A DNA stretch of 41,939 nt. Origin: Verrucomicrobiales bacterium. Lineage in GTDB: Bacteria; Verrucomicrobiota; Verrucomicrobiia; Verrucomicrobiales; DEV007. Position 1 is the stretch's first letter. Every line of letters starts with the position of its first letter. The translations under genes and the position numbers were made by a program. Below are positions 19,634-38,800 of the stretch, piece by piece. A model generated the notes under the pieces. It was not told where the DNA came from, did no database searches, and was given only the letters and a program-made list of their open reading frames with translations. The stretch covers positions 1 to 41,939 of the forward strand of contig PAAG01000044.1 in assembly GCA_002698785.1 (NCBI GenBank). The letters are read 5' to 3'.

Positions 19634-21808
19634 TCAAGAAATAAAAGAAGGCGGACGCGAGTCCTTCGCCCAGTCAGACGGCTCAGGTCCCATCTCCAGC
19701 GTCAGTTCCGCCTCAGCCGCAAACTCGCTCAATTTCAGGTAACACCGATCCAGAGGCCGTGAATTCAACCACGCCCGCTGCACATAATAGTGATCCTCCG
19801 CCTGGTTCAGCGCCTTCACCGTAAAATCGCCGCCATAGAGCTTCAGTTTCGCTTCTTCAAAAATCGGACTCCCGATTAGCATCACCGGCATCGCCGTCAC
19901 TGGGAAAAGTCCCACCGCATTCCACACATACCAGGACGACAACCCACCCGAGTCATCATTCCCAGGCAGCCCGCCCTTTCCAGTCGTGAACTGATAGCGC
20001 ATCACGCTCCGGACAATCTCCGCCGTCCTGTCATGACGCCCTGCATACAGATATGCAAAAGGCGTCTCCATATCCGGCTCGTTGTTCAAGCCTTCAAAAT
20101 TGTGCACCTCCTGCCCCTCAGCCGGCTCTTTGAATCCAAAAAACAAATCCAAGAGCTCAATAAACCTCTCTTCGCCCCCGGCGAAATTGATCCTCCCTAC
20201 CATGTCATGGAAAAAGCGGAAAGAGTAGTTCCAGTTTTCCCCCTCATAGTAATCCGACTCTTTCTTCATCAACCCCGTTTCAGGATCGAAAGCATTCGTC
20301 CAGAAATGCCCTAACGGAATACTCTTGTCGTAAATGATCTGGTCCCCCTGCCGCTTCGCCATCTGCGCGATACACCAGTTCGCAAAAGCAATATCCAGCG
20401 TGTGCGTCAGCGGCTCCACTACATGATTCCGCGCGAATTCTGCAAACTTACCACGGCGTCCCTTACCACTCAGCGAAGTCTTCCAGAGCAATCGCAGGAC
20501 ACCGTCCCAATTCCCTTCGATCCCGCGCATTTGTGCATCAGTCAGGATCATGTGGCACAACCCCGTCGCCTGTTTTGTAAAGCGATCCGGCGCGATATCC
20601 ATCAAATAACTGATCGGAAAGCCCCCCTCTCGATTTGCCACCTCCGAAAGAAACGCCACGAAATCCCTCCCGAACTCTGGCCACAGCGACATCACCAGCG
20701 GCAACTGCGTTTTATAGAGATCCCACAACGTCGATAGGTCAAAAAAGAACGGTCCCTCTTTCCCCGTGAACGGATTCTCATCCATGAAGTCGCCCGGCTT
20801 CAACGTCGTGTGATACAGCGACGTGTAAAAAATCTCCTTCAGCTCATCCGTTCCACCCTTCACTTCGATCTTCCCGAGCACCGAGTCCCACAGCGCCTGG
20901 GCCTCCCCCGCAATCGTATCGAACGACCTATCCTCCCCCCTGCCAATCGCCTCCGCCGACCGATCCGTGCAATGCAGCGAAAAACCAATCCGCACCTCCA
21001 TCGTCTCCCCCGGATTCTCCGCCTCGAACCAGATCCCAAACGGCGTCTCCGACTTCAACAAATCCTTATCCGCGACAAACTCTCCCTCACACTCGACCTG
21101 CTCGCCATCCTTCCAGATTCCCCACGCACGAATCGGCGTCATGCACCGGACATGGAAATAAAACGGAATCCCCTCCTGCAGAACCCTTCCGACACAGATC
21201 CCATCCTCATTAAAAGAAGCCCGCGCCTTCGTAGGATAACTTCGGGCACCACCGATTAACAAACCTCCCGACGTCAGATCAATTGCCACCTTTCCCGTTT
21301 TCCCTTCCGGGAAATGATACCGATGCAAGGCCGTCCGCTTCGTGCACGTCACCTCGAACTTCACATCCGATTCCACCAACTTCCCTGCATAATAGCCAGG
21401 CTTCGCCGCCTCATCCTCCAGCAAATACCTATCACCCAGCCCCGCCAAGCCATCACCACATAAAGGAGTCGTCAGGAGATAATTGTAATACATCCGGATC
21501 CGCCCCGTCCCCGACTGCTGAAAATGAGCCAACCCGAGCGCCTCGTGTCGCTCATAGAAAATCTCCGGAGGATCCCCACTCAGCGACACATCATACCTGC
21601 CGTAACCCGTCACATACGCCCCCGAATACGCACACACCGACACCATACCAAACGGCAACGTCGCCCCCGGATGAGTATTCCCCACAGGCGGCTTCGCACA
21701 CCACCATCGTTCAGCGATTCCCTTAGGTTCCGGGAGATCAGCGGCATCACACCCAAGAAACGGATCGACCCACTGTGAATTTCCAATATCAGACAAACTC
21801 TCTGGCAT
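19634..21808 (-). CDS. GH92 family glycosidase (alpha-1,2-mannosidase type)
   Basis: About 724 residues, the usual GH92 size. Family motifs in order are VDPFLG, PVGNTHPGATLPFGMV, LWDLYKTQLPL, YYEGENWNYSF, NNEPDMETPFAY and GGLPGNDDSGGLSSWYVW. GH92 enzymes are calcium-dependent inverting exo-mannosidases; the acid glutamate should be in YYEG (near residue 522) and the basic aspartates in GNDD (618-619). Most GH92 proteins have a Sec signal or lipobox, but none is visible here, so this one would act in the cytoplasm unless exported otherwise. I chose ATG 21808; the frame also allows GTG 21820 and TTG 21817, and none has a well-placed Shine-Dalgarno. No transporter or other glycosidase is adjacent. 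Exact linkage specificity cannot be read from sequence. Confidence 0.88.
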   Translation of the reverse strand: MPESLSDIGNSQWVDPFLGCDAADLPEPKGIAERWWCAKPPVGNTHPGATLPFGMVSVCAYSGAYVTGYGRYDVSLSGDPPEIFYERHEALGLAHFQQSGTGRIRMYYNYLLTTPLCGDGLAGLGDRYLLEDEAAKPGYYAGKLVESDVKFEVTCTKRTALHRYHFPEGKTGKVAIDLTSGGLLIGGARSYPTKARASFNEDGICVGRVLQEGIPFYFHVRCMTPIRAWGIWKDGEQVECEGEFVADKDLLKSETPFGIWFEAENPGETMEVRIGFSLHCTDRSAEAIGRGEDRSFDTIAGEAQALWDSVLGKIEVKGGTDELKEIFYTSLYHTTLKPGDFMDENPFTGKEGPFFFDLSTLWDLYKTQLPLVMSLWPEFGRDFVAFLSEVANREGGFPISYLMDIAPDRFTKQATGLCHMILTDAQMRGIEGNWDGVLRLLWKTSLSGKGRRGKFAEFARNHVVEPLTHTLDIAFANWCIAQMAKRQGDQIIYDKSIPLGHFWTNAFDPETGLMKKESDYYEGENWNYSFRFFHDMVGRINFAGGEERFIELLDLFFGFKEPAEGQEVHNFEGLNNEPDMETPFAYLYAGRHDRTAEIVRSVMRYQFTTGKGGLPGNDDSGGLSSWYVWNAVGLFPVTAMPVMLIGSPIFEEAKLKLYGGDFTVKALNQAEDHYYVQRAWLNSRPLDRCYLKLSEFAAEAELTLEMGPEPSDWAKDSRPPSFIS

Positions 21809-21938
21809 TTCCTGCAACACGTAAAAAACCCTAACCGAGCATAAGCGGTGCCAGAAAGGAAGTAAATGTCACGAACACCTCAGATTCAGGCGGTGGCGAA
21901 GACAGAAAGTAGGGCTCCAAATCCAAAGCGAAGAAGCT
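21809..21938. other. Upstream region of the GH92 gene, bounded by IS30
   Basis: This 130-nt stretch lies between the GH92 start and the left end of the insertion sequence. I see no gene and no clear promoter. The insertion may have separated the GH92 gene from its original upstream sequence. Confidence 0.35.
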
Positions 21939-21988: not shown

Positions 21989-22951
21989 ATGAGGAAATAC
22001 ACCCACCTAACCGTAACAGAAAGAAGGCTCATCGGAATGTGGAAAAAGGAGCGCTTAGCGCTCCGGGAGATCGCAAGGAGGCTGGGACGCTCTCCGTCTA
22101 CCATATCGCGTGAGGTGAGACGCAACTATTCTGGTTGCGGCTATTGCTGCTATATTGCCGACGACCAAGCCAGGTGGCGAAGAGCTTCCGCTAGCCGCGT
22201 CCGGAAGAAGATCCGCCCCGGGAACGCCCACATTATCAGGGATGGTCTTGAGAAGCGGTTCAGTCCTGAACAGATCACATCGGTCTTCTACCGGGAAACC
22301 GGCAAATCGATCTCGGCGGTATCCATCTATCGCTGGATCTACAAATACCGTGGCGGAGGCCGACTGGGCCTCCGCAAGAAGCTAAGGAGAAAAGGAAAAG
22401 CATATCGGAAATACAGACCTCGCACCGCACTTCTCGAAAATCGAACCATGATCGACGAGAGGCCCGAATCCATAGCGGAAAAGCGCTACTACGGCGACTG
22501 GGAGGCGGACTTGATGCTCGGACCTTATCGGTCCAGACGTGCCCTCCTCGTACTCGTTGAGCGGAAAACCAAATTCACAGTGATCAAGACACTGAAGGAT
22601 CGGAAGGCAGAAACCGTCTCTCAAGCAATCGTAAAGGCACTGTCGCCCTATCAGGTTCGGTCTATCACCTATGACAACGGAAGCGAGTTCGCTCGCTTCG
22701 GGGAGGTTGCGATGCAGACCGACTCGAAGGCCTACTTCTGCCTACCCTACCATGCCTGGCAGAAAGGCCTGGTGGAGAACACCATAGGCCTGCTACGGGA
22801 ATACTTCCCAAAAGCAGCGAAGCGGCCTCTCTCTGCCCATTACCTGACCTACCGCAAAGTCGCCTCAGAGCTCAATCAGAGGCCCCGAAAAACGCTCTCG
22901 TTCGCTGCTCCGTGCGAGCTCGAACACCACCTTCTCGAAGCAAACAAATAA
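21989..22951 (+). CDS. IS30-family DDE transposase
   Basis: A full-length 320-residue protein. An N-terminal helix-turn-helix (LREIARRLGRSPSTISREV) is characteristic of IS30 and binds the element ends. The RNase H-like core carries GDWEAD (D170-D174), YDNGSEF (D229) and KGLVENTIG (E263); the 33-residue spacing from D229 to E263 fits IS30. The C-terminal segment LNQRPRKTLSFAAPCE is also typical. No stop or frameshift interrupts it, so the element may still be active. The ATG at 21989 is the first in frame after the left inverted repeat. Confidence 0.93.
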   Translation: MRKYTHLTVTERRLIGMWKKERLALREIARRLGRSPSTISREVRRNYSGCGYCCYIADDQARWRRASASRVRKKIRPGNAHIIRDGLEKRFSPEQITSVFYRETGKSISAVSIYRWIYKYRGGGRLGLRKKLRRKGKAYRKYRPRTALLENRTMIDERPESIAEKRYYGDWEADLMLGPYRSRRALLVLVERKTKFTVIKTLKDRKAETVSQAIVKALSPYQVRSITYDNGSEFARFGEVAMQTDSKAYFCLPYHAWQKGLVENTIGLLREYFPKAAKRPLSAHYLTYRKVASELNQRPRKTLSFAAPCELEHHLLEANK

Positions 22952-22991
22952 CTCGCCACCTGAATACACTATTCCTACACTCAAAACAGGA

Positions 22992-23019
22992 CCCCGTTGC
23001 ACTTCAATGTTCAATCTGC
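22992..23019 (-). repeat. IS30 right terminal inverted repeat
   Basis: Its reverse complement contains TTGAAGTGCAACGGGG, matching the core of the left end. It lies 40 nt after the transposase stop. Confidence 0.6.
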
Positions 23020-23091
23020 ATTCGCAAGCAAAATTCAACTGTATGTCCGTCCCTTTAAACTTTCGCTTTAAACTTTAAACTTTGGTCGCCT

Positions 23092-23264
23092 AGAGTTGCC
23101 TAGGGACAGCACTTTCAGTGGGCGGAGTTTGTGTTGAGGCGTTCGGAGATAAGTGAAAGCCAGCCAGATCCCGGAATGTCGGGCTCTCTGGGCCGTTACT
23201 AGCGAGAAGCTGCATCCGGTTTCAATTCTTCAAACAGATGGCATTTCGCCTGCTGTTGGTTGCT
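23092..23264 (-). repeat. Cassette-boundary spacer repeat, copy 2
   Basis: Apparently non-coding DNA immediately downstream of the SMI1/KNR4-like gene. It resembles 25936-26103: both start with AGAGTTGCC, continue with a GGACAGC...AGTGGG...GGA...GCGTTCG string, and end in GCTGTTGGTTGCT near the stop of an immunity gene. This copy also holds a hairpin (CCAGATCCCG / CGGGCTCTCTGG, 23164-23191). Just outside it, 23051-23083 has three to four iterations of CTTTAAACTT. Confidence 0.6.
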
Positions 23265-23270
23265 ACTTAT

Positions 23271-23915
23271 CTACCTACAATCAAGCCAACCAGACACTGA
23301 TACCTCCTCACCATCAGATGCAGTTTTGATGCTATTGTATAATGTTGCCCAGTTTCTCATGCCGCACTCAGCTTCTATGGCGATAAGGTTATCCACTTCG
23401 AATTCTCCCCCCAATATAAATGGCTGCTTTGGAAGCAACCGTTCATGAGGTAGAAGCTGCCCGTTTGCAATTTGCCATTCGTGAGCAAGAGGCCATCCGG
23501 TGTCTGCCTGATAATTCTCTAGTAGCACACTTGCCCATTCATCGAATGAGTTTGCATAAGTGGTTAATTCCCCTGTTTCCGGATTAAACTGAACGACTCG
23601 ATCACCCTCTATCCCGAATTGGACTCCAAACAGATCGTGCGCAAAGAAAATGGTTTCTGGATCTAAACAATCAGCATATCCGTTACGCCAACCCGATTGC
23701 AAATTCCAAGATTCGATTCCCTTGGTCTGTCCGATATCGCATGAGGGAAAGACAACAAGTGCTGCTTCGAACGCCACAAACCCGTTTTTGCCCTCCAACA
23801 AATCCTTCAGCGACTTCGAGAGTTCGCTTTTTTCTGAAAGTAATTGCGTCGATTGAGGGCTCTCGTTTGTGAGTGCCTTAGAACCGATTTCGATCAATTT
23901 GTCAATGCTACTCAT
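23271..23915 (-). CDS. SMI1/KNR4 (SUKH)-like probable immunity protein for the NucA/NucB-type tip
   Basis: 214 residues, no signal peptide. Its ATG overlaps the stop of the upstream orphan Rhs tip by four bases (ATGA), so the two are translationally coupled. The C-terminal half has the pattern FFAHDLFGVQFG, VVQFNPETGE, GWPLAHEWQ, RLLPKQPFILGGEFEVDNL, which I recognise from SMI1/KNR4-family proteins often found beside polymorphic toxins. Such proteins neutralise cognate toxins in the cytoplasm by direct binding. Pairing with the DNase tip is inferred from position only. A spacer repeat follows directly on the 3' side. Confidence 0.75.
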   Translation of the reverse strand: MSSIDKLIEIGSKALTNESPQSTQLLSEKSELSKSLKDLLEGKNGFVAFEAALVVFPSCDIGQTKGIESWNLQSGWRNGYADCLDPETIFFAHDLFGVQFGIEGDRVVQFNPETGELTTYANSFDEWASVLLENYQADTGWPLAHEWQIANGQLLPHERLLPKQPFILGGEFEVDNLIAIEAECGMRNWATLYNSIKTASDGEEVSVSGWLDCR

Positions 23916-25765
23916 GGGTCAATTTCAACTGGTGTACCATCAGGCGGTAATTCATCTCTCAATCGCCGACCGCTTCGGCGGTTATGTGATCGGTCAATTG
24001 GTTTTACGGAAATCTTTGATGGATCATCCGGCTTGATAGTAGCTGGTGGGAACTCGTCTCTGTCTTTTTCTGGGACTGTTGTCCTATTTTTCATCCTTTC
24101 CTTTCTCCTCGCTTTCGCACCTGCACGATCGACAACTCCAGTGACTCTTCCAACTTCCTTTGCGTGGTCGCGCGCTTCAGCAACATCATCGCCTTCTAAA
24201 AATTTCCCAATTTTTTCTCTTTTTTGACCATTGCCATCAGCATTATCCTTTACCGAGCCTTCTGGAGACGATCTTCCATCTGTCCTTGGGCTTTCAGCGG
24301 TGCCAATATTATCCCCCGATGTTTGGGTCCACCCTCCATCTTCATTCGACTCATAGGAACCTGCCTCGGTATGTACTGAGACCTCACCGCTTTTACCGGA
24401 GTTCGCAATATCTTGGGTCATTGCGAAGTGGTCGACTGACTCGGACTCTTTGGGAGTATAGCCCGTCATGCACGGTTTTGAAGAATCGAAACTACCAGGT
24501 GGTTGTTGAGAGACTTCGTAAATCTTATACCCAATTGCTACAGCCGCTGCTCCACCCACGACAAGCACCGTTGCAGGACCGCCTAATGCTGCTGCTCCTC
24601 CTCCTGCTGTAGCGCCTCCGCCACCTGTGAGCGGCAAAAGCATGGGTTCAAAGCCGGTAGTGAGCCCCAGCGGATCGAACTTGGTCCAGGGGTTTTGATT
24701 GACGTAGCAGTAGAGATTCGGTCCGTCGACGAAACCGGCCGGATCTTTAGACAGCCACGTCATCGTTTCGAGATCTCGGTAACGAAAGCCTTCACACAAC
24801 AACCCGGTCGGATCTTCGTCTTTGGTGTTGCCGCGCTGACGGTCTTTGTTTTCTCCGACTTCGTGGGTGCGGGTGCCGTCGGCTTGGTATTCGCCTTGCC
24901 AGGTGAAGGCGCCCGTATCGTCTGTCTTGGCGATGACGTCGCCTCGGCTGTTGTAGAAGTTGAAGCCGGCACTGTAGTTCGTGGTACCGACATCAGCACG
25001 CAAGCTGTAGAGCACTCCACCAACTCCCCCGCCCCAGTCGCTGCCGCGCACGAAGGTGACATCGGGCCGAGCGCTACCGCTAATATTTCCGGCGGTCGCT
25101 GCGGTTCCGAGTTGGCTGCTTTCCCATTCTTGCGTGCTCGTGCCTCCACTGAACACCAGTGAAGTCGATACTCCGGGATTGCCCTGGTTATCGACTCCCG
25201 CGCTTTCGTCGCGGACGATTCGGCGAGTTCGATAATCGTAGGCATACGTATACGTGTTGCTCGATCCACCTATGTCGTCGATGACTCCGGTGAGCCGGTT
25301 TTCTTTGTCCCAACTGTAGACGTCGTTTTCGGTGGTGGTCGATGCTACGCTGTTGTCGGGATTATAGGTCTTGAGGATGGCGTTGCGCTCGCTCCGGTTG
25401 CCATTCGCGTCGTATAAGAAGTTCACCGCTCGCAATACATTCCCGTTGGCGTCTTCTTCGGTGTAGTACTGGAGCTGGTTCCAACCGCCGGTGTAATCGT
25501 ATGTTGCCACCTCGTCGTCGGTGCCGTCGCCGTCGGTGTCTTTGCGGCGATCTGTCCGGTTGTTCGCGTCGTCGTAATCGTATTCGGTTAGGCTGACGGC
25601 TCCGGCGTCGCCGATGGTTTCCGCCTGGAGGCGGTAGAGGTTATCGTACTCGTTGAACACGGTCCGGGTGCGGAAGGTGCCGGGCGTGGCGAAGTCTTCG
25701 ATCTGTTCTTTCTGGTAGATCAGGTTGCCCGCCTTGTCCCAGGCGTAGTCCTGACGATACATCAT
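23912..25765 (-). CDS. Displaced (orphan) Rhs tip: partial Rhs shell with NucA/NucB-like DNase C-terminus
   Basis: 617 residues from ATG 25765. Residues 1-368 copy the end of the neighbouring giant Rhs protein (YD repeats, RPDVTFVRGSDWGGGVGG, FRYRDLETMTWLSKDP, FDPLGL) but lack its signal peptide and stalk. Homology extends ~60 nt upstream of the ATG and then stops abruptly; a TAG lies just beyond, so this is a cassette, not a full gene. After FDPLGL the tail is unrelated to the other tip: a Gly/Ala-rich hydrophobic segment, a polar region, then KDRDEFPPAT, HNRRSGRRL and LPPDGT near residues 566-612. These resemble the DRDE(W/F)P...NRGAG...PDGT signature of NucA/NucB nucleases. It may be silent until recombined into the main gene, or expressed at low level for coupling with its immunity gene. 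Confidence 0.82.
   Translation of the reverse strand: MMYRQDYAWDKAGNLIYQKEQIEDFATPGTFRTRTVFNEYDNLYRLQAETIGDAGAVSLTEYDYDDANNRTDRRKDTDGDGTDDEVATYDYTGGWNQLQYYTEEDANGNVLRAVNFLYDANGNRSERNAILKTYNPDNSVASTTTENDVYSWDKENRLTGVIDDIGGSSNTYTYAYDYRTRRIVRDESAGVDNQGNPGVSTSLVFSGGTSTQEWESSQLGTAATAGNISGSARPDVTFVRGSDWGGGVGGVLYSLRADVGTTNYSAGFNFYNSRGDVIAKTDDTGAFTWQGEYQADGTRTHEVGENKDRQRGNTKDEDPTGLLCEGFRYRDLETMTWLSKDPAGFVDGPNLYCYVNQNPWTKFDPLGLTTGFEPMLLPLTGGGGATAGGGAAALGGPATVLVVGGAAAVAIGYKIYEVSQQPPGSFDSSKPCMTGYTPKESESVDHFAMTQDIANSGKSGEVSVHTEAGSYESNEDGGWTQTSGDNIGTAESPRTDGRSSPEGSVKDNADGNGQKREKIGKFLEGDDVAEARDHAKEVGRVTGVVDRAGAKARRKERMKNRTTVPEKDRDEFPPATIKPDDPSKISVKPIDRSHNRRSGRRLRDELPPDGTPVEIDP
23915..24661 (-). other. NucA/NucB-like nuclease tip region of the orphan cassette
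   Basis: This is the variable part after FDPLGL, where autoproteolytic release is expected in Rhs proteins. It appears richer in A+T than the shell upstream, as is usual for horizontally exchanged tips. The hydrophobic stretch GGPATVLVVGGAAAVAIGY may help membrane passage. The DRDEFP aspartates/glutamate and the downstream NR pair are the candidate catalytic residues. Confidence 0.65.
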
Positions 25766-25825
25766 CGCTCCGGGGGCAGCGAGGGTACCGGGCTTGTGCG
25801 TGATGTTGGCGGTGCGGCGGCCCTT
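24662..25825 (-). repeat. Duplicated Rhs shell segment, orphan copy
   Basis: About 1164 nt homologous to 27547-28677 in the giant Rhs gene, from the RRTAN(V/I)THKPGT region to the last L of FDPLGL. Similarity is high at both ends and lower in the middle (GGWNQLQYY versus EKWNQLEGF). Some stretches are identical over tens of bases and could support homologous recombination. Confidence 0.85.
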
Positions 25826-25935
25826 GACTACACGCTCTCTCTACGCAAACTTCCCCGTGACATATCCCTGACAGGTCGCGTTTCTTACTCGTTTGTTTGT
25901 TGGAAGGTCGGATGAAGAAGTCCAATTGACCTTTC

Positions 25936-26103
25936 AGAGTTGCCGAGGACAGCGGTTGGAGTGGGTGGACTTATCGTTGGAGCGTTCGAATGAATATCAG
26001 CATCGGCACCTGCCATCAAGTGCAAGGCCCGATCGAAGAAGCTTGGAAGGGAAATCTGTTTTTCTCATACAGCAGCTTGGCACAAGATTGGCTGTTGGTT
26101 GCT
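25936..26103 (-). repeat. Cassette-boundary spacer repeat, copy 1
   Basis: Apparently non-coding DNA between the DUF7832-like gene and the orphan Rhs tip, similar in sequence and in position to 23092-23264. The shared landmarks are AGAGTTGCC at one end and GCTGTTGGTTGCT at the other. I see no hairpin like that of copy 2. Confidence 0.6.
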
Positions 26104-26126
26104 AACGTACGTTCCCGGTTCGTTTG

Positions 26127-26555
26127 TTACCCTTGTCCTCGGTTCATACCGGAAAAGCGCTCCCCGATCATTTGCTTAACACGCTCATAATTCTCCCAAT
26201 TGTTTTCCACGCCATACATGCTCAAAACTTCACCGTCAAACAACTCGGCATAATCATCAAAATAGGTTCCCGAGTCGTAGTAACGTTTTGCAAATTCATT
26301 TCCGATTGGACTTAGCATATCTGAGGCCAGCGTTCCCCCAAGCACCCTCAATAAATCAGGCCCTGTAATTTCCCGCCTCCTAAAGGCTGCAATCTCATCT
26401 GCAAATTCATTTCCGACAGAGTCACTCTCCAAATTCGAGTCACACACCCACCCAAAAAAGAACCCAATGTGATTCAGCCCTTTGGAACCGGGTAGCACTT
26501 CTTCTGCATCTGCCTCATGATAAATGCCTTTGTCATATACAAAAATTTCGTTCAT
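26127..26555 (-). CDS. DUF7832-like probable second immunity protein
   Basis: 142 residues, soluble. The pattern YDKGIYHEADAEEVLPG, NHIGFFFGW, TGPDLLRVLGG, LSPIGNEFAKRYY and NNWENYERVKQMIGERF matches a family of small cytoplasmic proteins (DUF7832 in my memory) often encoded beside toxins. Its ATG overlaps the stop of the preceding gene by four bases (ATGA), so the two are coupled and follow the Rhs gene as a three-gene unit. It could be the true antidote, a co-immunity factor, or immunity left over from an earlier tip. Function is inferred from position and family pattern only. Confidence 0.65.
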   Translation of the reverse strand: MNEIFVYDKGIYHEADAEEVLPGSKGLNHIGFFFGWVCDSNLESDSVGNEFADEIAAFRRREITGPDLLRVLGGTLASDMLSPIGNEFAKRYYDSGTYFDDYAELFDGEVLSMYGVENNWENYERVKQMIGERFSGMNRGQG

Positions 26556-26887
26556 TTTGGACTGTTACGCACCCGTTTTAGCGTCAATTCTAACAAACGA
26601 ACATCCCCAGAGCCAGTATCCGCGCTCGACCACTTCTCATACGATTTACGAATTACATTCATTCCTTCCTCATTCAGATCTTCTGATGTAATTGCAAATT
26701 CGTCGGTTATTTCAGAGGGACTCTCGATTCCAAATTTTCTCGAAAGGCCGTTCCCTTCCAAAAACGAAATCAACGAAAAAATCTTCGTTGCAATTTGCTC
26801 GTCACTCTCCCCAGAGAGTCCCGCCTCACATAATTTTTTTGACACCTGTCGGCGCGCCTGTACCGATGTTATCGTCCACGGTTTCAT
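26552..26887 (-). CDS. Small putative immunity protein next to the PD-(D/E)XK Rhs tip
   Basis: 111 residues from ATG 26887; a TTG two codons upstream (26893) lies only 2 nt after the Rhs stop and could also serve. The protein is soluble, mostly helical in look and acidic in the middle (FLEGNGLSRKFGI, FAITSEDLNEEGMNVIRKSYEKW). I do not recognise a named family with certainty. Its position directly after the tip, coupling with the next gene, and small acidic nature are typical of cognate immunity proteins, so it is the first candidate for neutralising the adjacent nuclease. Confidence 0.6.
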   Translation of the reverse strand: MKPWTITSVQARRQVSKKLCEAGLSGESDEQIATKIFSLISFLEGNGLSRKFGIESPSEITDEFAITSEDLNEEGMNVIRKSYEKWSSADTGSGDVRLLELTLKRVRNSPK

Positions 26888-26895
26888 CTTCAAGA

Positions 26896-29800
26896 TTAGT
26901 CGAGCTTACGAACTTCGGAGACATCTTTAACTGGCACAACATCTCTTGTTTCCCGGTCCCTGACATATGTTCCTCCTTGTTCCCGAATACGTTGCTCTTT
27001 TTCCAATTGCTTGGTTTTATCAACATTCGTTCCTGTTGTTTCTACTGTCTGCGCAGAAGCTTTCTCCTTGTCAATGACAGCATGATCAACCCGCCGCGCT
27101 TCTCCTGTCAATGGATCTTTAACGATCTGTCCATTCTCATCTCTCAAATATTGCTCCCTTTGAACAGATGCATCGGGATTCTCATTTTTAAGGTCGTTTT
27201 GAACTTGCTCCTCACGGCGTTTTCCATCCGCTTGGTTCTTCTTCATCTGATCCTTCGCTGAAATAGGAGTTGGGTCCCCATCCCGCGGGGTCAGGTTGGT
27301 CCCATTGTTAGAGTCTACGGAATTCTTGTTGTGTTTCGAATTCAGTGTCCGCTTCTTGCCGGTAAGCCGATTCAAGGGATTGATACGGCTCATGGCTTCC
27401 ATCTTCATGCCGTTCTTGAAAGCCTCTTTCCCTTCTTCACTCGTTGCCGTTTCCACGAATATCTCGGGATTCTTTGCCAGGTGAACTACTCCGACGGTGA
27501 GATGGTCATAAATATTCTTCCAATACTCGCGGCTAAACCTCTCCGCCAACCCAAGCGGATCGAACTTGGTCCAAGGGTTTTGATTTACATACGCATACAA
27601 GTTGGGGCCATCCACAAATCCGGCGGGATCTCGACTTAACCATGAACCTGTCTCCAAATCCCGATAACGGAAGCCTTCGCACAACAACCCGGTCGGATCT
27701 TCGTCTTTCGTGTTCCCTCGCTGGCGGTCTTTGTTTTCTCCGATCTCATGGGTGCGCTGACCGTCGGCTTGGTACTCGCCTTGCCAGGTGAAGTCTCCCG
27801 ATTCGTCGGTCTTGGCGATGACATCGCCCCGGCTGTTATAGAAGTTGAAGCCTGCCGAGTAGTTCGTCGTGCCCACATCGGCACGCAGGCTGTAGAGAAC
27901 GCCTCCAACTCCTCCACCCCAATCGCTACCTCTCACGAAAGTTACATCCGGCCGTGACGTTCCGCTGATGCTTCCGGCAGTGGCTGCGGTTCCGAGTTGG
28001 CCGCTCTCCCATTCCTGATTGCTGGTGCCTCCACTGAAGACCAATGAGGTCGAGACTCCGGGGTTGCCCTGGTTATCGATTCCCGCGCTTTCGTCGCGGA
28101 CGATTCGGCGGGTGCGATAGTCGTAGGTATACGAGTAGGAATCAGTCCCCTGCGTAACTCCAGTCAGGCGGTTTTCTCTGTCCCACGAATAGGTGTGGGT
28201 CGTTGTTCCATCCTCGATTCGAGAGGTCCGGTTGCCATTCGCATCATACCCGAAATCAACCTCTTTCAGCAGGGTTCGCCCCGGTCCTTCAGGTCCATCA
28301 TACTCATCGAAGCCTTCCAACTGGTTCCATTTTTCAGCGTGATCATATTGGTACTCGGCAACGGATTCCCACTGGCCATTGTTATCAGCGTCTATTCTCC
28401 TCTTAGTGCGGTTACTGAGGTTATCGTAATCGTATTCGGTGACGCTCACCGCTCCGTCGTCGTCGATGGTTTCGGCTTGGAGGCGATAGTTGAGGTCGTA
28501 TTCGTTGAGTACAGTTCGAGTACGGAAGGTCCCGGGAGTGGCGAAGTCTTCGATCTGTTCTTTCTGGTAGATCAGGTTCCCGGCTTTGTCCCAGGCGTAG
28601 TCCTGACGGTACATCATTGCCCCCGGGGTCAATAGGGTGCCGGGCTTGTGGGTGACGTTGGCAGTGCGGCGCCCCTGAGCGTCGTATTCGCTCACAAGAA
28701 CCTGTCCGTTGGGGAAGAGCTTGCGGGTCACGCGACCAAGCTTGTCGTAGCCGTAGGTGGTCGTGCGCCCGTTCTCAGTCATTGTCTCGAGGCGGTTCCA
28801 GGCATCGTAGGTGGACTCGATGGTCTGGCCAGTGAGGCCGTAAACAACTTCTATCCGGTTGCCGCCCACGTCGTGGGTGTAAGCGTGGGTGACGCCGTTG
28901 CTCGTCTCCCGGTCCATGTTCCCGAGGGTGTCGTAGGCGTAGGAGACGTTAGCACGGGCGTCGGTGCTTTCGGTCACGGTGAGGATGCGACCGGCTTTGT
29001 CATAGCTATAGACGCGGGTGTCATTGTTGTCGTAGGTGACGGTCTTGAGTCGGTTGTAGCTGTCGTAAGAGTAACTGGTGACGCCGTTTCCGTCATTTCG
29101 GCTGCGGAGGTTGGTGGCATCGTAGGTGTTGATGACGGCCTGCACGCCGGCGGGGTAGTCGGTCTTTGTATTCCGGTTGAGTCCGTCGTAGGTGAAGGTG
29201 GTCACCTGGTGGAGACCACCGACGTCGGCGATGACTTTGGTCTTGTTCCCTGCGCTGTCGTATTCGAACTGCGTGGTAATGTTCTCAGCGTCCAGGGTGG
29301 TTTCAAGGCGATTGAGTGGATCGTAGGTGTTGGAAATGACGGTCCCGTTTGCATCGGTCACCTCGACGGCATTTCCATTCTGATCGTAGTCGGTCTGAAC
29401 ATGGGTGACGACTGCATTGTCTAGAGCAATATCACCGTTGCCATCAATAGTCACATCTCCGTTCGGGTCAAAGCTGACGACGTCAATCGGCGCGCCATAG
29501 ACGTCAGTGGCGCGATTGGCACTGTCGTAGACGGTGGTGGTGACGAACAGATCAGGGTCGGTGGCTTTCACCACGTTGTCCCGGCTGTCGTAGGTCGTCA
29601 GGGTGGAAGCGACCACTTCGGCGCCCTGTCCGTGGACTTTCTCCGGAGGAGCGGTCACGATGATGGGGCGATTCCGCGAATCGTAGGTGGTGGTAACGGT
29701 ATTCCCGAGCGGATCGGTAACGGTCAGGGCATTGCCTGCGGCATCGTAGGTCGTGTGGGTGACAGCCTGCTGGGGATCTTGCAAATTGTCGAGGATGTCG

Positions 29801-32800
29801 TTTCCATCGGAGTCTCGCAGCACTGGCGAGGTAACGGAGGTGGGACGCCCGACGGTGTCATAGGCGGTGGTGGTCACTCGCCCGAACACGTCAGTCTGCT
29901 CGTAGGGCAGGCCAGCGGGAGTGTAGCTGGTGGAGGTAACGAGGGGGCCCTCCGGAGTTCCCACGCCAACCCGGGTCTCCACGACCTGGTTGAGGCCGTC
30001 GTAATCCATTTCGGTCACGAGCCCGGAGGGATCGACTGTTCGGTAGACATTGTTGTGGACGTCGTATTTGTAGGTCTCCGTTGCGCTGCCGGTGCCACCT
30101 AATCCGGTGGGGAAGACGGTCTTCTGCGCGGTCATACGGTAGGAACCGTCGTAGGCGTGGTAGACCGTCGCCTTGGGCGTGACGGTCTTGAGGGGCTTGA
30201 AGCCGGTGAAGAGTCCTCCAGTGTAGGCATCACCATTGAACCCGGTCTCCTGCCAGGCATCGTCGCCGTCCTGCTCGTAGAAATACTGGACCGCATATTC
30301 TTCGTCTTCTCCAACGGCGAAGCGCTCTTCTTCTTTGCGATGGAGTTGGTCGTAATCGATCTCGGTGACGAAGCCTCTAGGGTCTGTGCTCGACGTAACC
30401 TGCCCAACATCGTTGTATTGATTTTCAGTAACGATGTCGCCTGCGGGCCCGGTGCGAATGAGGTCGCTATCGAGGTCGACATCGATTCCCGAACGTCGCA
30501 AACGTCTCCGCTTGTCGTATTCCTTGATGGAACGGGAAACGACGGCTCCGTTTTCGACGTGCTCCTGGACAATTTCGTCTCCGCCGAATTCGTCCGATTT
30601 CCCATACGAAACCCGGTTTTCCGACGTGACGACAGGGTCGCCCGGCGCGGGACCCTGGAACGGTGGTTGGACGGTCTTGATGAGGCGGTTCCAACCGTCG
30701 TATTCGAAATTGGTCACGAATCCTCTCGGGTCGGTCACGGAAAGTTTGTTGCCGTTTCCGTCGTAGGTGTATTCTGTGATTAGTTCCGTAGCGCCATCGT
30801 AGGCGATTTCCTGCTTTACGCGGAGTTGGTCGTCGGGCTCGTAGGTGGTAACCAAGTCGACTCCCCCATCTACATCGACTCCGTCGGTCACGGTTTTCCC
30901 GGACATGAATCCCCGGCTGTTGTCAAAATTCTTAACGGGATCATAAGCGAAGAATGTTTCCCTGACCAAAGCGTTATTTTTGGAAATGGTTTCCCGGATT
31001 CTATTGCCCTCGTCGTCGAACTCGTATTCCGTCACCAACGTTCCTCTTTGGATTTTCTCCAAGCGGCGACTGTCGGGCTCGTAGAAATTATAGGTCGTAC
31101 CTGCCGGATCTATCACAGACGTCGGATCGTCAAACCTCAGGAAGACCCGAGTATCATTGAGAAACGTGTTAACGCCGAGGGAGAACCCTTCGTCGTAATT
31201 GTAGGTCGTTGTAGCACCACTCAGATCGGTATGACGGGACAGTGCGTTTCCTGCTTCGAGATTGAATAGGAAGGATTCGGAACCCCCGGCGTGGGTGATC
31301 TCCATCATTTGATACGCGATGATTACCTGCTCCGCTTCCGGGTCGATGTATGCACCAGGCAAGTTTTCCGTATCGATGAAGCTAGGGGCGTAAAATCTGT
31401 AGGTCCAATTTTCCCCTTCCGCATCGGTAATCGAAGACTCGGCACGATACCCCACTATCTCGGGCATCTCTTCGCCAAACGCTGGACCGATCTTCAGTCT
31501 TCCACGATACTCAAAATGGGACGTCACTCCATCTGGAGCGATCACTTTCGATACAATTCGCGGCAGTCCGATCTGCGTCCGATAATCGGAGACATCATTG
31601 TCCCAGAATTGTACGTTGCCATTGTTCTCGTAGTGAAACCGGTACTCGTTCCCGTGCCGGTCAGTGATTGAGGCCAAGTCATAGGTTGTGACAAATCGTC
31701 CCGTGACCTCAGGTTTATCCCCTGAGGCAAACATTTTCCAATCTTCCTGCTTACCTATGGTATAAGAATATTTGATCGTATCGCCATTCGGTCGGTGCAC
31801 TGCAATCAGTTGTTCGTAATTGGGCGAGTATTCGTAGCGGGTCACTTTGCCGCGACAATCGCGGACTGCGGTCACCCTGCCGGTTGCGGATTGCGCAATC
31901 GCAACATCCAGTCCCCGATCCGGGTTCGAAATACGAGAGGGAATCACGGTATTGGGCCCTGGATACGTGTATATCAGTGTGTTCTCGTTGCGATCAGTTA
32001 CTGACTCCAGCCGGTAGTAGAAAACCTTTGTATGTGGAGTTTCTTCAGGCACAAGGGTCTTGCGATTCCCAACATATTGCTGCTCGTAACCAATTTTCTG
32101 ATACAACAATGTCGTTCCAAACTTCTTCGTAAAGACAATCGCTCCACCACCGCCGGCAACGACATTCATGTAACTTTTGGCAGAACCGCCAGCCCCAGGC
32201 TGCGGAAACCACGCACCATTTACGATGTTGAACGAATGCACTGACCCGTTCTCATCGATCAGTGTTCCCAGCGAACTCTCCGTCGCTCCGGTTTCTCCGA
32301 TGTTTTCTACAACTTTCGCGTGTGCTCCGATGTTGCTAGACCACCCCAGACCGAACGGGAGATCGAGGCGCTCGGATGTCCTGAGCCCCTGATCACGCAC
32401 TACAAAACCATCACTGAGGCTGGTTCCCTTCCAGCTCTGATCACCCCGACTGTTGCGTCTCACTTCCAATGAGAAATCGGCTCCCTGCATGGGAACGTAT
32501 ACATCCGTGGTGGAGTGACTGAGACTCAGGTTGAATGCATCGATGTAGGTTTCTTCTTTTTCGCCATCGTTTTCAGCCGATTCGTCCGGCATTTCATCCG
32601 GTATCGGTCTCCCGTCCAAACTGATTTTCCGATAGCGTGAGCCGGTGAGATCGTTTGCAGAGACATTGGGGCGAGTCCATTTGGAGGTGGGACGGTCTTC
32701 TTCTTCCTCCTCTTCCCCATCATCGTTCGTCAGAACCTCTACACAATTGCATGCTTCCCAGTCGAACTCGAATCCCTCGCCACATTCGGGTACACCAACC

Positions 32801-35800
32801 CACGATGGCAAGTCCGAGCAATCCATGAATTCACCGAGGTCGCAAAAATCGGGATTTGCCTCTCGAAATTCCGGGTCGTCACAGCCGCCGTAGCTCGGAT
32901 TATTGCCTACGTCCGTGTAAAATTGAAGGGTGAGCGGAGGAGGAGAGAAACTCTCAGTGTACAATCCGTTATGGGAGACAGTTCCTGTGTATTGGTCCTG
33001 AACGGGCTGATTGTTCTCAATCACGTTGGGACGAAGAGGGTCAGTCCCCCAAATCGTTATCTCATCGAAATCGCTAATTCCATCACCGTCTGTATCTTCC
33101 AACCACGGATCTGTCCCATATTCGATGACCTCTTCATAATCGGTGAGCTCATCGAATTCTGAGTCTGGTTCTCCGGGGTTTGTTCGATAGATTTTTACCT
33201 CTTCAAAATCAGTGAGGTCATCGTTGTCAGAATCCGGTTCCGTTGGGTCGGTCTCCGCTCGAAACTCTTCGAGGTTCGACAATCCGTCATTATCCAGGTC
33301 GTCTTTCGCATCGGCAGCAAGGAAGGGGTTCAGCCCATAGGCTCTTTCCCAGTTATCATCGATTTCGTCCTGATCATAGTCCTGGCTGGGGTTGCGCGGA
33401 TTCGTGCCTACAAGAACTTCGAGACCGTCTCCTGCTCCGTCGCCATCCGTATCAGGATTCAATATCACGGTGCGATAACGATACTCCCAGAGGTTGGTGA
33501 GATCGTCGTCATCGGGATCTCCTGTCGGGTCGATATCTCCATCATTGGTACCATCCACCTCAACTGAGTCAAGAAAGGCCTCCCAGAGGTCAGGAATGTC
33601 GTCGCTGTCACTATCCAGGTCAGCGAGGGTCAGGACATTCGGATCGACGGGGAACGGCGGAGCAGGATCGTCAGCGGGATTGGTTACATAGGTATGGTAC
33701 TCATCTCCGTCGGACACCCCATCTTCATCGGTATCCGTGTCGAGGGGATCTGTTTTCAATGCATATTCGTCTGCATTCGACAATCCATCCCCATCAAAGT
33801 CTTGAACCTGAAATAGAGGGTTTGGATCTACATACCCTTGTGGCACGTCATACCACTCTCCGGCCCAAACAAGAACGCCATTGATATCATACTCCCATTC
33901 GGTTCCCGTATACACCAAAATGCCGTTCACATCATAATCCCAATTGGGACCATCGTACAGCATGGTTGCCGTCGCTGTATCGTAGTACCAGTACTGAGAA
34001 GACTCGCTATCTTCCGGATCGTAATGGGGCTCTGCAGGAGGATCATTCGTATTCGAAGGTACGGGAGCATATCCAAAGTATGCTTCCCAAACATCAGGAA
34101 CTCCATCTTCGTCTCGGTCGGTGGACGTGCCATCGCTGTACTGATTGACATCTGCGGGCCACCCCCGAATTACTTCTATCCAAGTTGGGATTCCGTCACC
34201 GTCCGGATCTGCCAAGCCATCCTTAGGATCAGTTTCATTGATGTGCTCCTGTAGGTTAGGTACACCATCGTTGTCCGTATCAACTAATGCGTCCTGCCAA
34301 TAATTCGAATCGAGTCCATATTGGTCCTCCCAACTGTCCGGCATACCATCATTGTCGGTGTCGACGATTAGGAAAATCGATCCGTCGGTTTTGCTATTGG
34401 GATCGTCGGGGTCTGTTCCTCGATCCAACTCGAACCCGTCGGGTTGACCGTCGTCATCGAAGTCAGGATCTTCGTCGGACAAGTTCAGGGCCCACTCCCG
34501 GCCACGCCCTACTCCGTCACCATCGCCGTCGACCAGACCATCCGCCGGATCGTGTGGATTCCAACCGTTCGTAATCTCATATCCATCAGTCCAGTCGTCC
34601 CCGTCGGAATCGGAGTCATTCGGGTCGAGACCCCAGTATTGCTCGTCCTTGTTCAAGAGCAAGTCCAGGTCGGGGTCACCACTTCCCGTCTGGGCGGTAG
34701 TATTCCCAAAGTATTCTATTTCCCATAGGTCTGCCAGATCGTCGCCATCGGAATCAACCGGTTTGACCCCCGGATGATCCGGATTTCCTCCATAGTGGTA
34801 TTCCGTCCAGTCGCTCCATCCATCGCCATCAGAGTCCGAACTGTTTGGATCCGTTCCGGCATACATTTCTTCCTCGTTCGATACCCCATCATTGTCAGGG
34901 TCGTCATCGTAGCTGTTCGTCATCACGCTTCCGAAATGCTCCTCCTCCCAGGAATCTTGAAGGAAGTCTCCGTCGACATTGATGTCCGAGGGTGTGTGCA
35001 GCACCTTCCGCAGGGAGTCTTCGGCGAGAGGAGTATCTGGAACGCTGGCTGCGGAAGAAGGATCAGTTCCGTAGATAACAATCTCGTCTCCGTCGAGGTA
35101 GCCATCGTCGTCGAAATCCCAATCCTCATCGTCGAGCGAATAAATCAACTCAACCGCGTACGACAATCCATCGACATCCCAATCTCTGATCTCATATGTC
35201 AAAGGACTGAAATCCTCCAAGTCATCGATATGATCTCGGTCCGAATCGTAGCTATCTGGATCAGTTTCGATGTGCCCCTCAGGGGTCTCGGTCGCGGGAT
35301 CAGCGAACGCACCAGTCTCGTATCTTGTAGTAAGACCATCGCCATCATAGTCATATTCCAGAAGGGACGGATAGAGTCCCTGCTCGGGCGTTTGATAGAA
35401 TGCAACCATGGCATTATAAGCGTCTACAGAAGACTGATCATTTGGATCCGTTACCACGAAACCGCCCGTCTCGTGTGAAGCAATATTTTCTACAACCACT
35501 CCCATACACCCACCAACCGCGTCAACGCCAGGGGTTGCCCCAGTAAGCTCAATGATGGGATCTGCACCAGAATCGTTCGCCGAAATCGATGAGATAAAAA
35601 ACTCTCCAAGATAAGTTAATTCAGAGTTTTCATCAGGCACCTCAACTACAATGTCCGACTGGGCAACCACGAAAGAGTCATCGTAATGATTTACTCTAAC
35701 CACGACCGAATCGCCACTATCAGGTACCAGAACAAGGTCTTTGATCCAAAGATGGGCTCGTTTCAACCATGACGGCGCGGGGTTGCTTCCCCCGTCCATT

Positions 35801-38800
35801 ACTAGCGGAAACTTGATTTCTCCATTGGCTCCAGAAGTCCCACTAAAAGCATAAAGGTCTTGGTATGACGCTTCGAGATCATATCTGCCACGAGATAGCT
35901 GTAAATCTTCGAACCGTGCGATCCCCTGATCTTGACGGTCCTCACCCGAAGACACATATCCCCCTGAAAACACACTCTCAAAAGAGGTCTTAATCGGATT
36001 GGTCAACAGTGCCCAGTCCGCGGAATGCGCCTTCCCATAAAGCAATGCTTGACCACCGACTCGCAGGATTCGCAGAAAAGCTATATCATTAGCATTTCCA
36101 CAATCGATTGACACTACCTCTGCACCTTGGCTCTCACGATACTTCGCCAAAAGGTTCCCTGTTGCTGTTACTTCCACAGCCACAAAGGGTGCATCGGCTC
36201 GCAACCCTCCACGAATCATTACTCCGCCTGAAGAAGATGAGGCACTGGAAGGAGCAAACATCGGTCTCCGACTTTCAATCATCTCACGATCTTGAGGATT
36301 CGAAGAGCGAAAGAAGAAAGATACCCCATCCCAACGGTCCTTCAGTCCCCAACCTTGGGAACTTGCCAAAATCTTCCCATTATCGTCATTCCAGTCTTCG
36401 AACTGTCCTCCCAAATCGGCTCCGAGTACCATCGTATGCCAGTCGTCGGCTTCTTCCATTGTTCCGGTCGATTGGTAGGTGAAGCCATCCACATCCGAAA
36501 CGTCCCATTGAACCGTTACCGACACTGGATCGGAAATGGGCCCGGGAACATTGAATTCATCGACTGCAACCGCTGTAAACTCGATCACCGTGCCGTCAGC
36601 TTCCGTAACGTCGTAGATCACTTGGTAAGGAGCTTCGTAATCCGGACTTCCAATCGCAACACCATCGGCATAAAACTGTACACCGGTTATCTCCGCATCA
36701 CTGGGGTGAGTTACTGTCGCCGAAACAGGAACATGGGAAAGGTAATCGACGTTAGTGCCATCCAAGGGAGCATCAATGCTTGTCAGCGGCCCCTGAGAAA
36801 GATACAGAGTTACGGGAATCCGAACCAGCAAATGGTCTTCGCTGTCACGCAGTTCATACGCTCCTTCATACATGTCATTCGGTATGCCGGAAGGATCGAC
36901 AGAAAAAGATAGTGAAGAAGAGCCATACGTTGAGAGGGTTTCCCCTTGAGGCAGTACCGAGAACCATTCGATATCTGGATCTTCTCCTTCACCCAATACA
37001 ACACTGTCGAAACTCGTCCCACTCCACGTAAGTGCAGCACCAGTGAAATTCTCGAATTCCCTTCCAACGATCAATGTATCACCAGATTCGAGAGAAACTT
37101 CAACCGGATCGATCGGATAGCTAAGAGGGTCGGTCGGAGAAGTTCCCGCGAACACTTCGTAACCATCGACTGCTCCGTCCTCATCGCTGTCAGGTTCGAG
37201 CGCATCTGTTTCCCACAGACCTTCGTCCGCATTGCTCAACCAGTCGTGATCGTAATCGCCCGAGGCAGAGACATTGTCTTGAGCGGCATATTCATCGAAC
37301 TCATCTACTCCGATAATGGCAAACTCGACTCCGTCGCTCACCCCGTCTCCGTCACTGTCCCAGTTGTTGGCGTATATTATGTGCCCTCCAACGAAGAGGT
37401 TGTATTCCTCCACGTCAGTAAGACCGTCTGAGTCGGAATCCTCCGTAGTGTTGTCTTCCAGTGGGTCGAGACCGTTATCCAACTCCCATTCGTCAGGAAT
37501 CCCATCGTTATCAGAGTGGGAAGAATTCGGATTTGTCTGGTTCCGGTATTCCTGCAAATTTGAAACCCCGTCATTGTCCGCATCGAGGGAAGGCTCATCT
37601 ACGTCCGTGTAATGTTGCTCCCAGGCATCCGCCATTCCGTCCAGATCGGCATCCGGTTCAATTACGTTGTAACACCTCCCGAACTCTACCGACGCACCTT
37701 CCTCCAACACTTCAACCGCGATCATCAAATCTCCGTCTACTGGTAAAGACGGCGCATTAGTGAAAGGAATGTCTGCGGATTGCTCCACGTTCTCGCTATC
37801 CACCCACAGCAAAATGAGCTTCGGAGTGGAAGCTGACAGGTCCACTTTTAGTTCCAGCACATCAAGCGGCGACAAGACTACGGAAGTACCCAGGGAAACC
37901 TGGCTATCAAAGCTTGACGAAATTTGCAATTCCCCCTGCTCATTCGTGGATACATACAGTTCTGGAGACCTTACGGCTCCCGTAAAGAATGAATCGGCCT
38001 GCACAACACCTATCCGGGCTTCTTTTGAAGGATCACCAAAGCGGAAACGTATCCGGCTCCCATCTTTCAGCCTCTGATGAGATAGAGCCCGCCCCGTCTC
38101 CCCAGCAGAGAGAGAAGACTTGCGGTCAACTGTCGTCGAGTAGTCGACCCCACCTTCATCCGTTTCAGATACAATCACACTTTCTGTTTTCCCAAGCCGG
38201 TCAAACACCAAAGGCTCGAAATGGTCGGCCCCATCAATCGGTGACGTTCCTTCGAAAGACTCCAAACCGTTGCTAACAAGGTCGAAGTCAACATCGTCAT
38301 CCGGCAATGCCGTAAGAAAATTCACAATTCCATCTGAACCGCTACGGTCGATGATCGCCAATTCCATCTCATCTTCGATCCCGTCTCCATCACTATCCCT
38401 TGAAGTTGGATCGAGTTCAATTCCCTCCGAATAATACCGGTCGTGCTCCACCAAGTCCTTCACGCCATCGTTGTCATAGTCGGAGGCGGATGCATCAGAA
38501 TCGGGGATAATGGGATTAAACGCCGTGTTATACTCCCACTCCCAATCATCTCGGAGACCGTCGTAATCCGAGTCTATTAAGTGCCCCTGAGTGCCGATCG
38601 CGAATTCTTCCGAATTGAGCAACCCATCCAAATCGTCATCGAAATCCCGTTTCACATCATCCACAATGGTGTACTCAGCCTTTGCATCGACAATTGCCTG
38701 CTCCCAGCTGTCCAGCAGATAGTCGTTATCGGTATCTGGATCACGAACTAAGCGATACCGCAAATTATAGACTTCCGCGTCTTCTTCCGGAAGCGAAACG

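Follow-up and report, generated by a model that had tools for sequence, protein, structure and literature searches.

A non-coding element with sharp ends and a predicted antisense-strand fold behind immunity-position genes at Rhs loci of Verrucomicrobiota

Two related spacers in an Rhs locus

The contig PAAG01000044.1 (assembly GCA_002698785.1) of a Verrucomicrobiales bacterium from the DEV007 group spans 41,939 nt, and this whole stretch is referred to as the window. It contains an array of Rhs polymorphic-toxin genes and two copies, A and B, of the non-coding element described here, each lying just 3′ of a gene in immunity position. The Verrucomicrobiota, to which the organism belongs, are a group that includes soil and water bacteria. 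The locus comprises the following features:

26896..41634, minus strand: main Rhs/YD-repeat gene, 4912 amino acids (aa) (open reading frame (ORF) list, Rhs core matches)
26552..26893, minus strand: small gene of 113 aa after the main Rhs gene, no family found (ORF list)
26127..26555, minus strand: immunity-position gene just before element B, DUF7832 (Pfam PF25191, 3.8e-27)
25859..26109, structured strand plus, opposite to Rhs: element copy B, full length, 251 nt (covariance model match)
23912..25765, minus strand: orphan Rhs shell plus tip, the shell ∼80% identical to the main gene
23271..23915, minus strand: immunity-position gene just before element A (weak SUKH-1 match, 20.7 bits, cut-off 25.4)
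23030..23270, plus strand: element copy A, distal half degraded (covariance model match, alignment to B)
21989..22951, plus strand: IS30-like transposase adjoining the degraded end of element A (HTH_38 and rve domains), which we take to belong to the IS30 family

The window and the arrays found elsewhere have the layout of an Rhs polymorphic-toxin array: a main Rhs gene is followed by orphan shell-tip-immunity modules, as seen from the shell copies, and TIGR03696 cores are interleaved with the elements. Judging from position and weak family hints, the genes beside A and B are probably immunity genes. They are mutually unrelated (BLASTP E 1.2; a SUKH-like match below the Pfam cut-off for one, DUF7832 for the other), as an earlier note on this DNA had stated. 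At 4912 aa the main Rhs/YD-repeat protein (26896-41634) is very large. A GH92 glycosidase gene is found at 19634-21820, beyond the Rhs locus.

The earlier note had proposed that the spacers at 23092-23264 and 25936-26103 resemble each other over about 170 bp and might serve as a distal recombination site, an idea to be dropped if they aligned no better than shuffled sequence. The alignment scored above all 1000 dinucleotide shuffles in each of three scoring schemes, and a 28-base pattern taken from both spacers occurs at only these two places in the 7.0-Mb genome with up to three mismatches. Chance similarity was rejected on both grounds. Between 5 and 9 of 1000 random window positions equalled the score, and their number and maximum (324) fit overlap with the spacer itself. 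The likeness is made up of a ∼54-bp block at one end and 13 identical bases at the other, the middle being poorly alignable, and over the 150-bp model described below A and B are ∼54% identical. The resemblance is thus real, and its extent had been put too small, as the true elements are longer (25859-26109 and 23030-23270).

Both spacers lie directly 3′ of an immunity-position gene, as had been claimed. The 3′ end of copy B is 17 bp from the stop codon (26127) of the upstream gene, and the edge of copy A is directly at the stop codon (23271) of the SUKH-like gene (0 bp). Both edges were found for copy B, which forms 33 of the 38 consensus pairs and matches positions 1-247 of the covariance model with 142.1 bits (B is among the 22 training sequences). 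Orphan shell homology begins at 25824, 34 bp past the distal end of this copy. Copy A, which is outside the training set, matches with 61.6 bits; it is well preserved from about 23092 and degenerate below this point, keeping its 3′ half and having lost helix pairs in the degraded part. A third, weak copy was seen elsewhere in the same genome (G000:C9:2326-2520, locus L157), near an ORF that is cut by the contig start and has no known family.

Copies in related genomes

A BLAST search of 56 genomes with spacer B gave nothing besides itself at E < 0.045. Of the 386 genomes of the order searched, 24 matched the 28-base pattern; a few of the matches were close and clustered 1-2 kb apart, and Rhs genes adjoin several of them at the loci inspected. 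Most of the three-mismatch matches look like chance, because a backward control pattern matched too. With a sequence-only model covering ∼150 bp on the immunity side of the element, matches were obtained in 60 of the 386 genomes and 19 of 50 genera (E up to 0.05). Local iteration of this model on the fetched loci yielded 87 copies at 61 loci in 36 genomes of Verrucomicrobiota, and 70 of these copies (31 genomes) are nearly complete for the 150-bp model. No copy was found in the viral contigs and plasmids searched.

A protein-coding remnant was rejected, as stops or frame-breaking indels interrupt the frames in the majority of copies; some copies keep single open frames. Both spacers are copies of one family of ∼243-bp non-coding elements with sharp ends.

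Ends of the element

The immunity-side end was defined with 123 within-genome copy pairs sharing a register-matched homology block. Homology starts at −9 to 0 of the model in 98 of them, exactly at −5 in 51, and the terminus reads about AAAWAGTGGCAACCAAC. The distance from this edge to the shell homology is 268-299 bp in the window and in L056, L165, L175, L176, and L059 (where the block is weak), and longer in L057, L080, L166, and L167; the second end was therefore located from it. This distal end, about CGCGACTTGTCCGATGATGTC, is present with up to six mismatches in 45 of the 87 copies, compared to 51 of 2000 windows drawn at random from these loci. Two of the 45 ends (L165_11699 and L173_3393) are those of a tandem neighbour. 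Among these 45 copies, near-identical ones included, both edges show up as a change in information content within one base: it is close to 0 outside the immunity-side edge and 0.98 bit inside, and crossing the distal edge takes it from 1.0 to 0.1-0.4 bit, with 0.7 at one later position.

No sign of target duplication was seen at the edges, where direct repeats of at least 4 nt occur in 0/45 copies (mean 1.3 for shuffled pairing). Terminal inverted repeats were not found either, the terminal 12-mers of the 45 copies sharing complementary runs of 2-5 bases. With terminal complementarity of at most five bases and direct repeats in 0/45 copies, a DDE-type miniature inverted-repeat transposable element was ruled out. 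Truncations affect the distal side in 16 of the 87 copies and the immunity side in one, as counted with a search model that spanned only the immunity-side 150 bp.

Such ends are also what a selfish, non-autonomous mobile element could leave behind, one that has a structured RNA or single-stranded DNA (ssDNA) intermediate and depends for its mobility on an enzyme supplied in trans, such as a Y1/HUH transposase or a reverse transcriptase. We regard this as unlikely. Sharp ends, lack of target duplication, dispersed solo and tandem copies, and truncation mainly on the distal side all agree with it; the truncation bias may, on the other hand, stem from the copy-finding method or from selection on the immunity gene. 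A Y1 (IS200-like, PF01797) transposase gene starts right after one element copy (L147:7180-8291); it is either a candidate for the mobilising enzyme or an accidental neighbour. Y1 relatives or fragments are present at a minority of other loci (L082, L157, L165, L175, L181, L197, L223, and L226), and most of the loci scanned have no Y1 relative, which speaks against a selfish element of this type.

Some copies are longer (316-366 bp) through an insert at one place, hairpin-rich by eye. At L167:5190-5438 a short perfect hairpin (ATCCCGC...GCGGGAT) is inserted inside a conserved arm of the element, and at L061:6617-8045 a copy is split in two by about 1.3 kb, a stretch that contains a ∼210-bp direct repeat.

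A covarying fold on the strand opposite to Rhs

When only part of the element was folded (one strand, then both strands of five copies), no structure appeared, apart from one fold of ten (L167, plus strand, z −2.58). The fold became visible on the opposite strand once both ends had been found and the alignment was full-length. Default alifold on 19 sequences gave −0.4 kcal/mol for the sense and −10.2 kcal/mol for the antisense strand, each below all 50 column shuffles. Large fold energies come with RIBOSUM scoring: on 24 sequences the strand opposite to Rhs reached −50.6 kcal/mol, compared to −14.3 (standard deviation (sd) 3.5) for shuffled columns, with 0/100 shuffles as low.

Further analysis used an alignment of 22 sequences, namely window copy B and 21 of the 45 copies with a distal motif, these 21 being at most 262 nt long and with less than 92% mutual identity. 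Here the strand opposite to Rhs gave −43.0 kcal/mol vs. −20.1 (sd 4.0) for gap-class shuffles; the Rhs-sense strand also beat its shuffles, less strongly (−36.1 vs. −16.0, sd 2.9). The tool's own alifold run gave −11.7 kcal/mol and 16 pairs, 11 of them with compensatory changes. In the 38-pair structure 86.5% of the pairs are standard, 80 cells are changed on both sides (28.9 when shuffled, at most 32 when slid), and the covariation score is 0.326 (0.175 when shuffled, at most 0.128 when slid). Of 831 cells, 131 are G.U and 33 are A.C, and this excess of G.U therefore identifies the strand opposite to Rhs as the selected one. The Rhs-sense strand of the element is C-rich, and this suggested a possible Rho-dependent terminator.

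In the predicted architecture a long-range helix closes the structure, an inner helix encloses two arms, and a hairpin at the 3′ end stands apart by the immunity stop codon. Of all the helices this terminal hairpin is the weakest, with 70% pairing and no double changes. Loops are conserved besides the covarying helices. The covariance analysis that the earlier note had suggested shows that a fold of several helices is conserved on the strand that runs opposite to the toxin and immunity genes, and the covariation supports a shared fold of a structured non-coding element, either RNA or ssDNA.

A known RNA family was ruled out by searches with Rfam 15, which gave no match in the window at 22900-26900 up to E 5, none in L056 and L060 up to E 1, and at 5800-6400 of L165 two hits that stay well below their gathering scores and do not overlap the element.

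The fold might belong to a gene for a small non-coding RNA that is read towards the immunity gene and has a terminator-like hairpin at the stop codon of the latter; it would regulate the toxin or immunity transcripts or shield neighbouring modules from transcription of one another. We find this somewhat improbable. Selection on the strand opposite to Rhs, as read from the G.U excess, covarying helices and conserved loops are what an RNA gene would be expected to have, and a terminator scan lists a hairpin with a T-run at the immunity-side edge in L165, where the two sites listed do not exceed shuffle level (mean 1.0, sd 0.9). The same scan found no terminator for window copy B, and no promoter-like site was seen at 25700-26250 of the window or 8500-9300 of L165 when scanned for the sigma-70 consensus. 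Nor can a conserved promoter travel with such a gene, because conservation ends close to its 5′ end, and tandem and solo copies fit a dedicated regulator poorly.

Copies outside the order

A covariance model built from the 22-sequence alignment was searched in 387 genomes of the phylum and matched 18 of them at E up to 0.001, nine lying outside the order. Eight out-of-order loci were studied, and weak out-of-order matches outside these eight occur in the genomes G465, G683, and G439. A same-strand Rhs gene adjoins the element at five of the loci (L220, L222, L223, L226, and L228) and is 3.1 kb away at L221; L224 and L225, from one genome, have none. Opposite-strand Rhs was seen at 0/8.

Seven copies from five genomes, L228 (31 bits) being left out and L221 and L223 being close relatives, were aligned and folded without the training set. 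The same helices were recovered at −44.7 kcal/mol vs. −26.3 (sd 3.5), with 0/100 shuffles as low; the other strand gave −26.6 vs. −16.9, also 0/100. On a model-fitted alignment of all eight, which leans towards structure, the pairing reaches 89.6% and the covariation score is 0.445 vs. 0.197.

These results bear on passive homology, i.e., a remnant 3′ flank that would simply accompany Rhs modules during duplication or transfer, as happens in other arrays of displaced tips. The passages of PMC2935791 on arrays of core fragments and tips in Enterobacteriaceae attribute them to core recombination, and element copies within an array are in the median 96% identical, as such co-transport would predict. 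A passive flank would, however, not show covarying structure across orders or a common edge after unrelated genes, and the held-out structure test strongly disfavours it, which makes this explanation very improbable.

Genomic placement

An open stretch of at least 70 codons on the same strand stops −20 to +60 bp from the edge in 55 of the 87 copies, compared to 107 of 600 positions drawn at random from these loci; on the opposite strand this holds for 14 of the 87. In the wider range of −60 to +100 the counts are 63/87 on the same strand, 209/600 at random positions, and 38/87 on the opposite strand. The 63 genes stopping in this range fall into 60 clusters at 1e-4, i.e., almost all are unrelated.

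According to a local Rhs profile run on the fetched flanks, 58 of the 87 copies have a same-strand Rhs gene within 4 kb, none has Rhs on the opposite strand only, and 29 have none; random placement would give about 0.5 of 76, judging from the Rhs core counts. Among the 58, Rhs lies on the 5′ side only in 28, on the 3′ side only in 9, and on both sides in 21. In a set of 76 copies (E up to 6e-4, 35 genomes) at least 39 have an Rhs core on the same strand at a distance of up to 8 kb; for one copy, among the matches listed, the only core is on the other strand. Accumulation behind immunity genes would also arise for a selfish element, because insertion elsewhere in a toxin module would be lethal. 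The shared strand of all 58 copies exceeds what a merely harmless site predicts, because the opposite orientation should be tolerated there.

The earlier note had raised the question whether the spacer always follows Rhs immunity genes, and this does not hold for the 29 copies without a local-profile Rhs hit within 4 kb. Two of these have a same-strand RHS-repeat gene nearby by Pfam, below the local cut-off (L081 and L145). A few copies follow non-Rhs toxins: that of L155 comes after a PT-HINT/LHH toxin with a small gene in between, and that of L154 has an FhaB-like protein, which carries a colicin-type DNase domain, no more than 0.6 kb away. Others are solo and dispersed, with ordinary neighbours such as phosphofructokinase, pyruvate-carboxylase-like, AraC regulator, and transglutaminase-like genes. 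At L140-L145, L152, and L159 the contig extends no more than 1.4 kb to the 5′ side. The element shows strong enrichment at toxin-immunity modules without being confined to them; random genomic places, which the note had set against its own claim, describe a minority of copies only.

At L162:4934-7313, behind an AraC-family gene, three non-Rhs ORFs, none of which matches Pfam, lie between two equally oriented copies in a cassette-like arrangement.

Arrays and identity between copies

The median identity of elements is 0.96 within an array (28 pairs), 0.88 between loci of one genome (87 pairs), and 0.53 between genomes. Tandem element-element joins of 140, 162, and 211 bp retain the immunity-side edge. 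The within-array identity and the tandem joins therefore indicate repeated local joining or recombination. In several arrays orphan Rhs modules are bracketed by element copies.

Two further repeats were observed in arrays. In the Rhs array of L153 a second repeat of ∼70 bp, mostly 100% identical, recurs at oriented positions 1446, 5161, 7291, 7413, 9575, and 9669, and in L056 of genome G209 a 2.3-kb stretch of the main Rhs region (269-2609) recurs at 97% beyond the array (9661-12001).

A possible distal boundary of toxin-immunity cassettes

We tentatively favour, at somewhat less than even odds, the reading that the element is a distal boundary of toxin-immunity cassettes, whose folded antisense strand would be recognised when modules join behind immunity genes, with homologous recombination between copies helping. 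Taking the existence, ends, orientation and fold of the element as observed, we infer each step of the following mechanism. A protein recognising the folded single strand, or its RNA, would join DNA at the immunity-side edge. Through such edge-precise joining the element would start at the same base behind immunity genes that are unrelated to each other. RecA-type recombination between the near-identical copies of one genome might then stack, duplicate or remove shell-tip-immunity-element modules. In the window the process would have stopped, the two copies having diverged and copy A having decayed beside the insertion sequence.

For the proposal of the earlier note this means that the boundary part stands: a conserved non-coding element with fixed orientation and a common edge after mostly unrelated genes is found in many related genomes. 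The part played in recombination is conjectural, no event at the element having been observed. The sharp ends on both sides, the covarying structure on the opposite strand and the dispersed solo copies had been overlooked.

Several observations weigh against a cassette boundary. The 29 copies without a nearby Rhs hit belong here, as do copies between divergent genes (L136 and L137, one of the genes being pyruvate-carboxylase-like), and only part of the Rhs loci carry the element: genome G209 has 13 Rhs cores among the matches listed and elements at three places. Of the 123 within-genome pairs, 25 start off the common edge, the window pair included, and the immunity-side edge could look fixed because deletions there would harm the immunity gene. 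A single genome (G079) contributes 41 of the 87 between-locus pairs from which the value of 0.88 was obtained. The window copies are only ∼54% identical while their Rhs shells are ∼80% identical, and therefore no recent exchange through the element is visible in the window. No clean empty site was found at L147, where the left and right flank blocks are at different places in other genomes, and neither an empty site nor a strain pair caught mid-event was found in general. No recombinase could be tied to the element. Finally, the conserved loops seem to suit a functional RNA better than a plain recombination site. The antisense RNA and selfish-element explanations are not mutually exclusive.

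A bolder version of the boundary reading, which we consider doubtful, is a new class of cassette boundary in which a folded antisense single strand, DNA or RNA, is recognised by an enzyme as a fixed seam for adding toxin-immunity cassettes of any family. If true, bacteria would have an integron-like way of capturing weapons that is independent of attC sites and of every known recombination site.

Comparison with known systems

The attC sites of integrons are non-coding, directly follow the cassette gene, keep the same orientation along arrays, fold on the bottom strand, and are more alike within than between genomes. The element shares with them its position after a gene, the common orientation, the structure on the opposite strand, and the higher identity within genomes. 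Sites of the attC type also carry an R″ box (RYYYAAC) and an R′ box (GTTRRRY) at their two ends. Among the 45 copies with both ends, RYYYAAC is found in the first 30 nt of 0, GTTRRRY in the last 60 nt of 17, and both in 0. The long end-to-end hairpin of attC was not seen, with terminal complementary runs of 2-5, a branched fold, an unpaired 5′ end, and a separate 3′ hairpin. Unlike attC the element is thus ∼243 bp long and branched, with conserved loops, no box pair and ends that are not complementary, and an integron attC site was ruled out by the absent box pair and the non-complementary ends.

REP/REPIN repeats associated with Y1 enzymes and RNA elements without an ORF, such as HEARO, which is among the Rfam families, are short, structured and dispersed and are not known to cause target duplication. 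The element resembles them in all these respects, and some copies are near a Y1 transposase. It differs in having no Rfam match in the stretches searched and in being strongly linked to toxin-immunity modules.

No description of such an element was found in full-text searches of open-access papers, a body of text mostly excluding subscription papers. A conserved, structured distal element with defined ends across genera and orders would provide a handle on the capture, stacking and loss of modules. It would be a new family of structured RNA or ssDNA and would mark toxin-immunity modules in this phylum, non-Rhs ones included.

For the gain of new toxin-immunity pairs by polymorphic toxin loci, homology on the toxin side (the Rhs core) has been described, and the passages of the literature that deal with it name no defined distal site. 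Core homology is treated as the recombination site in the relevant parts of two accounts (PMC2935791, PMC3967940), and the corresponding part of a third describes toxin-immunity cassettes without a distal site (PMC3482391). The displaced Rhs tips of Enterobacteriaceae have the layout seen here, in which core fragments carrying unrelated tips come after a main rhs gene, and circular intermediates and homologous recombination have been proposed for them (Jackson et al., 2009, PMC2935791). In the sections of that paper on displaced tips recombination takes place in the core only, and no structured distal element is mentioned. The esaG immunity clusters of the type VII secretion system come closer, since a downstream intergenic homology block takes part there in recombination between paralogous immunity genes, as the pertinent part of PMC9484751 describes. 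The element likewise is a block of homology downstream of immunity genes. The esaG genes are paralogues, whereas the genes preceding the element are almost all unrelated, and unlike the block of the esaG clusters, as far as it is described there, the element is structured and common to several genera.

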